From Cytophagales bacterium (GTDB lineage: Bacteria; Bacteroidota; Bacteroidia; Cytophagales; Spirosomataceae), in assembly GCA_013298125.1 (NCBI GenBank), contig JAAFJP010000029.1:1-64000 (forward strand): 64,000 bases of DNA, in the 5' to 3' direction. Below, one piece after another: positions 41,321 through 43,044 of the stretch. How positions within the stretch are numbered: the first letter of the stretch is position 1; each line of letters begins with the position of its first letter. Both the position numbers and the translations under genes were made by a program. The notes under the pieces are model-generated. The model ran no database searches and had not been told where the DNA came from. It worked only from the letters and a program-made list of their open reading frames with translations.

Positions 41321-41394
41321 ATTACAGTAGCTCGAAGTGGCACTTCGAGAATTGGAGTACAATTTCTCGAAGTACCACTTCGAGCTACTGTAAT
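41321..41394. repeat. Palindromic element
   Basis: attacagtagctcgaagtggcacttcgagaa...ttctcgaagtaccacttcgagctactgtaat. Confidence 0.9.
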
Positions 41395-41864
41395 TATATA
41401 GAAAAAGGCACAGGACGATTCAAAGACTCTTCCAAAGAAATAAAAGTCTCCGTTCGTTGAATGCCTTGCACTTTTTGAATTTTATCATGCAAAACCTCAC
41501 GAAGATGCACGGTGTCACGACAAACGATTTTAGCAAAAATTGAATAAATCCCTGTCGTATAATTAATACTAATCACTTCGGGGATTTCAGATAATTGTTC
41601 TGCCACTTCTTCGTAGAGGGAACTTTTATCTAAGTATATCCCCAAAAATGCCGATATGTCCCAACCTAATTTAGTATGGTCAATCACCAACTGAGAACCA
41701 ACTACAATACCAGCTTCCTCCATTTTGGTCATACGTACATGGACAGTTCCGCCCGATACATGGATTTTTTTTCCGATTTCGGTATATGGCATATTGGCGT
41801 TTTTCATCAAAAGGCTCAATATTTTCATATCCACCTCGTCGATTGTTATGTTTTTGTTTATCAT
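41394..41864 (-). CDS. Lrp/AsnC family transcriptional regulator
   Basis: 'IDEVDMKILSLLMKNANMPYTEIGKKIHVSGGTVHVRMTKMEEAGIV'; RAM domain. Confidence 0.93.
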   Translation of the reverse strand: MINKNITIDEVDMKILSLLMKNANMPYTEIGKKIHVSGGTVHVRMTKMEEAGIVVGSQLVIDHTKLGWDISAFLGIYLDKSSLYEEVAEQLSEIPEVISINYTTGIYSIFAKIVCRDTVHLREVLHDKIQKVQGIQRTETFISLEESLNRPVPFSI

Positions 41865-42073: not shown

Positions 42074-42105
42074 TTTGCAATATAAATACCAATGTACTAA
42101 TTTTG
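42074..42105 (+). promoter_or_regulatory. Bacteroidota sigma-type promoter driving tRNA-like gene
   Basis: TTTG (42074-42077) - 20 nt - TAATTTTG (42098-42105), matching TTTG/TAnnTTTG; predicted start about 42112. Confidence 0.7.
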
Positions 42106-42128
42106 TCATGTCGTAAAGGCAATCATAC

Positions 42129-42291
42129 TGTAGGGTGATGAAATTTGGCAGACGTACCCTCCTGTCTCGGGGGTGGTGAACATGAAATAAAATTAGTATA
42201 ATGCCTATCGCAAGATAGACTGGGGTGGACCACCGCTTTTTGTACTATATCTAATCACACCGTGGAGGTTCGAGTCCTTCTCCTACAGCCA
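42129..42291 (+). tRNA. tRNA-like gene: class-II body, anticodon GUC (Asp-type loop), 90-nt structured variable region, G73, encoded CCA
   Basis: Acceptor TGTAGGG/TCCTACA; T8 G9; D-arm ATGAAATTTGGCAGACGT; anticodon arm CCCTC-CTGTCTC-GGGGG; T-arm GGAGG-TTCGAGT-CCTTC; discriminator G then CCA; variable region 42174-42263. Confidence 0.75.
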
Positions 42292-42479
42292 ATTATTTGA
42301 ATATTTGAGGATAAATATTTTGATAAAAACTCATTAATTTATTACCTTTATTCTCAAATTATCAAAAAGACTACTTTCTATGTAGTCTAATTTGGTTTTT
42401 AGTTTGTTGATGAAGTGTAATTCAGAAAAGCAGTCTCGTTGAGGTTGCTTTTTTTGTGTTTTAAGGGTTTGGACATGGA

Positions 42480-42525: not shown

Positions 42526-43044
42526 TCATTCTTTTAGCCATGGACGCTTAATAGGTAGTATTTTTTTCTCCTTTGAAATAGGTTTGATTGTAGGTGGGAC
42601 ATTTTCAGAAGTATTTAATTCTGTCCCAATTCTACTGTAATTAACACTTTCATCTACATTCTTGAAAACTAATTTAAACCAGTCAATTAACTCTACAAAA
42701 ATATTATCCCCATAAGGTATTGGCATATTTATATTTTCAATTACCCCATCTGAAAAAAGATAATGATCACAGCTAAAACACAATTCAAAAGTCTTTACAA
42801 CCTGACCATTATTATCTCGCCAAATCAGCACATCTCTATATATGGCTGCACACATCCAGTCTGCATCTAACTTTTTAGGGAATAGGCTTATTTTCTCAGA
42901 TAACTCTGTGAAATCAATATCTTTTAATTCAATTTCATATTCAGGATTGAACTTAAAATTACCATCAGGATTTAAAAAGCTACTGTAATAGTTATCTTTC
43001 GTTGGCTCAAAATGTATTGCAAAAATTTTCAACTCACTTTCCAT
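42526..43044 (-). CDS. Hypothetical protein
   Basis: 172-aa ORF between non-coding spacers, same strand as downstream hydrolase. Confidence 0.5.
   Translation of the reverse strand: MESELKIFAIHFEPTKDNYYSSFLNPDGNFKFNPEYEIELKDIDFTELSEKISLFPKKLDADWMCAAIYRDVLIWRDNNGQVVKTFELCFSCDHYLFSDGVIENINMPIPYGDNIFVELIDWFKLVFKNVDESVNYSRIGTELNTSENVPPTIKPISKEKKILPIKRPWLKE

Follow-up and report, generated by a model that had tools for sequence, protein, structure and literature searches.

The question raised by this locus is what a bacterium might do with an RNA that is built like a class-II tRNA with an outsized variable arm and carries, at the same time, the anticodon and discriminator base of tRNA-Asp. The gene lies within a stretch of 64,000 nucleotides from a Cytophagales bacterium (contig JAAFJP010000029.1, positions 1 to 64,000; hereafter, the window) and occupies positions 42129–42291 of the forward strand, with the mature body at 42129–42289 and the CA of the 3' end at 42290–42291. 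An earlier interpretation made from the letters alone (hereafter, the sequence-only reading) had described a canonical cloverleaf, which was borne out letter for letter and whose helices are also supported by covariation: the class-II cloverleaf at 42129–42289 is perfect, and its variable arm is long. Its acceptor stem pairs TGTAGGG (42129–42135, beginning with U1 and G2) with TCCTACA (42281–42287), the latter being part of a 3' strand (42281–42291) that goes on to include G73, C74 and the encoded CA. The D-arm (42138–42155) has a 3-bp stem, ATG/CGT, and a loop, AAATTTGGCAGA, containing G18G19; the anticodon arm CCCTC-CTGTCTC-GGGGG (42157–42173) presents C32, U33, G34, U35, C36, U37 and C38 at 42162–42168; the variable arm (42175–42261) is closed by a base helix (42175–42178/42258–42261) and has an internal loop (42186–42191/42251–42254); and the T-arm GGAGG-TTCGAGT-CCTTC (42264–42280) completes the molecule, all on the same strand. 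Upstream stands a Bacteroidota-type promoter (42074–42105, forward strand) consisting of TTTG (42074–42077), a 20-nt spacer and TAATTTTG (42098–42105), just as had been proposed, and a TANNTTTG box stands no more than 70 nt ahead of the RNA in 158 of 225 upstream regions taken from homologues (4% in shuffles).

ARAGORN makes no call at the RNA of the window, and Rfam 15, searched at both gathering and permissive thresholds, returned only chance matches for the region, RF00005 not being reached; the architecture had been held to be novel, and the lack of any matching Rfam family agrees with that. The folding energy is no better than that of shuffled sequences (z = -0.48) and, being uninformative, leaves the case for the RNA to rest on its homologues.

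These are plentiful, with at least about 290 host copies found in Cytophagales, Chitinophagales, Saprospirales, Sphingobacteriales and Ignavibacteria. In a blastn search of 200 relatives, near-full-length copies turned up in nearly every member of the organism's own family, and many more of the order's families had them as well; 78 of these copies were parsed into the same parts as the RNA of the window to give a first homologue set. The covariance search of Bacteroidota genomes suggested by the sequence-only reading, which had named a lack of compensatory changes as an outcome that would speak against the RNA, found homologues with such changes in abundance: over 399 genomes of the phylum, the scores were two-peaked, with true members at about 90 bits or more (the window copy, matched at 42129–42289, scores 155.8 bits), and the matches below 60 bits (83–88 nt) were set aside, on both length and score, as ordinary class-II tRNAs. 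A pattern scan of GTDB, which matched at least 120 stretches, pointed exclusively to records of the Bacteroidota group among the matches listed. Tandem arrays of up to five copies occur (loci L214 of Phaeodactylibacter, L261 of Lewinella and L267 of Flammeovirga).

In an alignment of 41 diverse homologues that had been fitted to no structure, 98.9% of the cells in 27 pairs are paired, compared with 52–61% in slid controls, and 13 of those 27 pairs show two-sided changes; a second set of 55 further distinct sequences, mostly from other families and, in this case, fitted to the covariance model, gave 98.6% paired cells and 17 two-sided pairs. All of the homologues share the cloverleaf with its T-loop, D-loop GG, U8, A14 and CCA-type end, and covariation extends to the T-stem and to the D-stem (AU/UA/GC and UA/CG). 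The folded variable arm described earlier holds in part: its base is indeed conserved and covarying, yet the base stem is GGTG/CACC (GGAG/CTCC, GGGG/CCCC and so on in other homologues) rather than GUGA/UCAC; further inward come two additional pairs that covary and a 6x4 internal loop, RAWAAA/CTAA, that is conserved. Conservation is confined to this base, the distal domain (a GNRA hairpin and a GGTGGACCACC element in the window copy) being highly variable between lineages and the length of the variable region ranging from 43 to 106 nt in the first homologue set. The encoded CCA, previously thought to be worthy of attention, turns out to be no family feature, since, while G73 and C74 are invariant, the CA is usually not encoded.

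Several structural peculiarities should also be recorded. Many Spirosomaceae homologues have a bulge of 1–2 nt in the T-stem; the anticodon stem of the Sphingobacteriaceae copies (L104–L108, L092, L093) is interrupted midway by a U-U mismatch; and two of the four tandem copies at L057:373-766 have about 48 extra nt before GGGATAAA in the variable arm. An anti-Shine-Dalgarno role for the CCUCC of the anticodon arm was considered and rejected, because covarying changes have replaced CCUCC in this stem in other clades.

Which enzyme such an RNA might be charged by is best judged from the bases that do not vary. Across 93 unique host sequences, chosen without regard to the loop sequence, U35, C36, C38, G73, C74, U1-A72 and G2-C71 are each found in 93/93 and G34 in 88/93 (the remaining five have C, U or A, i.e., anticodons CUC, UUC and AUC), whereas positions 32, 33 and 37 are variable, 12/93 having A, C or G in place of the U33 that is universal in elongator tRNAs. 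The Asp identity set consists of G73, G34, U35, C36 and C38, with G2-C71 being a minor element (PMC9976931), so that the AspRS-type identity suggested from the single copy is upheld by the family as a whole. The first base pair tells another story: U1-A72 lets GatCAB amidate Asp-tRNA-Asn, and G1-C72 is the antideterminant that protects Asp-tRNA-Asp (PMC9976931). In the organism's own genome, G1-C72 is the first pair of ordinary tRNA-Asp and U1-A72 that of ordinary tRNA-Asn; the RNA thus unites features of the two, its anticodon-side and discriminator identity being those of tRNA-Asp and its first pair that of tRNA-Asn. Three points weigh on the other side: five of the 93 sequences depart from G34, the G1-C72 pair that is helpful to E. 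coli AspRS is absent, which counts against Asp charging, and the D-loop, 11–12 nt long in most host copies and ambiguous in its residue numbering, may hold a residue like 20a, a GatCAB antideterminant, which would count against amidation.

We favor, with a probability of roughly 0.7, a non-decoding or poorly decoding tRNA that would be charged with Asp by AspRS and amidated to Asn by GatCAB under the control of an AsnC-type regulator. The same invariant bases bear on two simpler explanations. That SerRS or LeuRS would charge it as a class-II tRNA, as its body, Leu-like D-arm and tRNA-Ser-like G73 might suggest, is barely credible: neither enzyme needs the invariant U35, C36 and C38, a GUC tRNA carrying Ser would lead to mistranslation, Leu needs A73, and the variable arm is lost in a 77-nt variant. 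An ordinary if divergent tRNA-Asp isoacceptor used in decoding, to which the GUC anticodon, the Asp determinants and ARAGORN's calling of short phage forms as tRNA-Asp would lend themselves, is very improbable too, as the genome already has two normal tRNA-Asp genes and the family includes non-U33 members, some CUC, UUC and AUC anticodons, and bulged T-stems.

If charging by AspRS and amidation by GatCAB are to be taken seriously, the RNA should be seen in the company of GatB, and the gene content was compared accordingly. A first sample of 150 genomes included 37 Bacteroidia, 35 of which have GlnRS; 14 of these 35 carry the RNA together with GatB, whereas both are missing from the other 21, an agreement of 35/35 (p = 4e-10 with genomes counted as independent of phylogeny), and the two are likewise present or absent jointly inside families f23 and f24. 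AsnRS is encoded by all 14 carriers and AsnA by none of them, and E. coli-type AsnB, as judged by match pattern, is found in 0/14 carriers vs. 17/21 non-carriers. With both GlnRS and AsnRS present, GatCAB would otherwise be unnecessary in the carriers. The two GlnRS-negative genomes (G240 and G134) have GatB because such genomes need it for making Gln-tRNA; G240 lacks the RNA, and G134, which has AsnA, contains only a 77-nt relative without a variable arm (L109:1038-1114, loop CTATCTC), perhaps a decaying or repurposed copy.

A larger sample of 213 genomes of the class likewise showed GatB in 40/40 RNA-positive genomes and E. coli-type AsnB in 0/40 of them vs. 30/173 RNA-negative ones; it also included, however, 119 GatB-positive genomes without the RNA, which counts against a strict link between the two. 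For scoring E. coli-type AsnB, NF006949 was used alongside TIGR01536, as the latter is too broad for asparagine synthetase. The organism's own genome has GatB, AsnRS and GlnRS, with neither AsnA nor AsnB above the cut-off, and most other RNA-positive genomes encode AsnB-like amidotransferases that pass TIGR01536 and fail the E. coli-type model, some of which may make Asn, a point against the favored reading.

These distributions are also what a quite unlikely, but less easily dismissed, explanation has to face, according to which GatCAB and a non-discriminating AspRS would act on ordinary tRNA-Asn, a route established in Bdellovibrio (PMC4206432), with the RNA being a regulatory partner, e.g., a charging sensor of AspRS, GatCAB or AsnC. 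Bacteroidetes have indeed been listed as having AsnRS, GlnRS and GatCAB and no Asn synthetase (PMC4206432), ordinary tRNA-Asn does have U1-A72, and AsnC is the RNA's neighbor; what would be left unexplained are the strictly kept C36, C38, U1-A72 and G73 of the RNA and its joint presence and absence with GatB. The tRNA-derived regulatory RNA entertained by the sequence-only reading is less favored for similar reasons, since the conservation of the acceptor end and anticodon loop, together with the strict co-occurrence with GatB, points to aminoacylation and amidation, and this very combination brings the alternative offered in the same place, an "unusual aminoacyl donor", close to the best reading. 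No mechanism had been attached to that suggestion; the meaning of U1-A72, the AsnC neighbor and the GatB link now supply one.

The neighbor in question is encoded at 41394–41864 on the reverse strand, divergently from and head-to-head with the RNA, and its product belongs to the Lrp/AsnC family, having an AsnC HTH and a ligand domain. The top NCBIfam model is PRK11179 AsnC (E 6e-47; 159 bits vs. an equivalog cut-off of 227), and among PDB chains the protein matches that of E. coli AsnC best (2cg4, E 8.6e-32), the runner-up reaching 4e-21. Among 110 named loci with enough flank, an AsnC-type gene is adjacent and divergent to the RNA in 82 (median gap of 172 nt), including loci of Ignavibacteria, and no other arrangement of the two genes was seen; the 28 loci without this neighbor count against an AsnC-controlled Asn carrier. 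In the flanks examined, AsnC is the only recurrent partner common to several families, followed by SufB, which is local. E. coli AsnC is an activator of asnA, and asparagine abolishes the activation (PMC4482635), from which we infer that the AsnC-type regulator next to the RNA would bind asparagine and control the divergent RNA gene.

On the other side of the RNA, a 25-nt element, TTTTTAGTTTGTTGATGAAGTGTAA (42396–42420, forward strand), is conserved, and 52 of 69 loci have its core AGTTTGTTGATGAAGT in the 200 nt that follow the RNA, at a distance of 12–146 nt; the element could be the 3' part of the RNA transcript or a separate small RNA. In several loci, a terminator-like hairpin comes next. 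The adjoining reverse-strand gene of the window (42526–43044) encodes a 172-aa protein without a Pfam match.

Taken stepwise, the favored route of Asp charging and amidation would run as follows. AspRS would read G34-U35-C36, C38 and G73 and attach aspartate to the RNA; GatCAB would recognize U1-A72, which is missing from ordinary tRNA-Asp, and amidate the bound Asp to Asn; the Asn, freed by hydrolysis or transfer, would feed AsnRS; and the divergent AsnC-type regulator would match this RNA-dependent synthesis to the available asparagine, in the way that E. coli AsnC regulates asnA. Asn-tRNA(GUC) would have to be kept off Asp codons, for which four features might be responsible: U33 has been lost in several clades, position 37 holds a pyrimidine or G, the variable arm is huge and, in many members, the T-stem is bulged. 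In the window copy, ribosome exclusion would rest on U37 and the variable arm, since U33 is kept and the T-stem bulge is absent. We know of no enzyme releasing Asn from such an RNA. The fuller proposal of an RNA cofactor that makes and releases free Asn, is regulated by an asparagine sensor and is carried by phages to keep up the Asn supply during infection is given slightly better than even odds.

Release is also the point at which an unlikely variant departs: Asp on the RNA would again be amidated by GatCAB, with the Asn then being passed directly to a peptide, lipid or cell-wall precursor by a transferase bound to the variable arm. The same invariant identity bases would be expected, and the highly elaborated arm with its conserved internal loop would find a use; no recurrent transferase gene, however, adjoins the RNA in the flanks examined, and the 14 carriers without AsnA or E. 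coli-type AsnB suggest a need for free Asn.

The family is not limited to cellular genomes. While blastn searches of phage and plasmid record collections found no homologue, a pattern scan of viral contigs identified 58 with the RNA, the copies being 91–173 nt long. Among 43 distinct phage copies, 38 have U1-A72 and 5 have A1-U72, the latter counting against the GatCAB reading; a phage group with A1-U72, a short variable arm and a length of 93–94 nt comprises L301, L285, L308, L276 and L319. In some phage arrays, the RNA stands beside a tmRNA and as many as about 25 ordinary tRNA genes (L283), and in other loci (L301, L304) it is the sole tRNA found, short phage forms being called tRNA-Asp by ARAGORN (e.g., in L301, where no other tRNA is present). 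L283, L316 and L321 have about 22–26 tRNA/tmRNA calls each, including an ordinary tRNA-Asp and, in L283 and L321, the tmRNA, and all three also contain the RNA; L299, L312, L316 and L322 have an extra D-loop hairpin besides the long variable arm. Clustering of the phage neighbors yielded lineage-specific ORFs only and no shared partner. That phages carry the RNA to sustain asparagine supply is, for the time being, speculation.

What is at hand is, in any case, a previously undescribed and widespread RNA family of Bacteroidota and of phages, whose window copy is overlooked by both ARAGORN and Rfam and of which a literature search, with subscription papers outside its scope, found no description; bacterial and phage genome annotation would gain a new RNA gene that escapes the tRNA and Rfam tools now in use. 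Should the proposed function be true, it would explain the asparagine supply in much of the Bacteroidota lacking AsnA or E. coli-type AsnB, as well as the retention of GatCAB beside AsnRS and GlnRS, a puzzle noted before (PMC4206432). More generally, tRNA-dependent amino acid synthesis would prove separable from decoding through the evolution of a separate carrier RNA, that is, there would be a class of tRNA existing to make an amino acid and not protein.

How far this departs from what is known is best seen by comparison. Bacterial tRNA-Asp(GUC) shares with the RNA G34, U35, C36, C38, G73 and G2-C71, but has G1-C72 in place of U1-A72 and a short variable loop in place of the class-II body with its 43–106-nt variable region, and U33 and base 37 are free only in the RNA. 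The E. coli asnC/asnA pair likewise joins an AsnC-type regulator to an asparagine-making gene, although here the proposed counterpart of asnA is an RNA and not a protein synthetase. Some tRNAs are used outside decoding, such as the dedicated tRNA-Gly species of the staphylococcal cell wall and tRNA-Glu in haem synthesis, and in this the RNA would resemble them; it would differ in the amino acid and pathway, in its long variable arm, which they lack, and in converting Asp to Asn, whereas they donate or reduce the amino acid. The known tRNA-dependent Asn route has the same predicted enzymes and chemistry, the same U1-A72 amidation signal and the same occurrence in the absence of AsnA and AsnB; its carrier, however, is the decoding tRNA-Asn with a GUU anticodon, charged by a non-discriminating AspRS. 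The enzymes and chemistry are thus already known, and what appears to be new is a separate carrier RNA of the Asp-type GUC kind, apparently incompetent in decoding, with an AsnC-type regulator beside it and homologues in phages.
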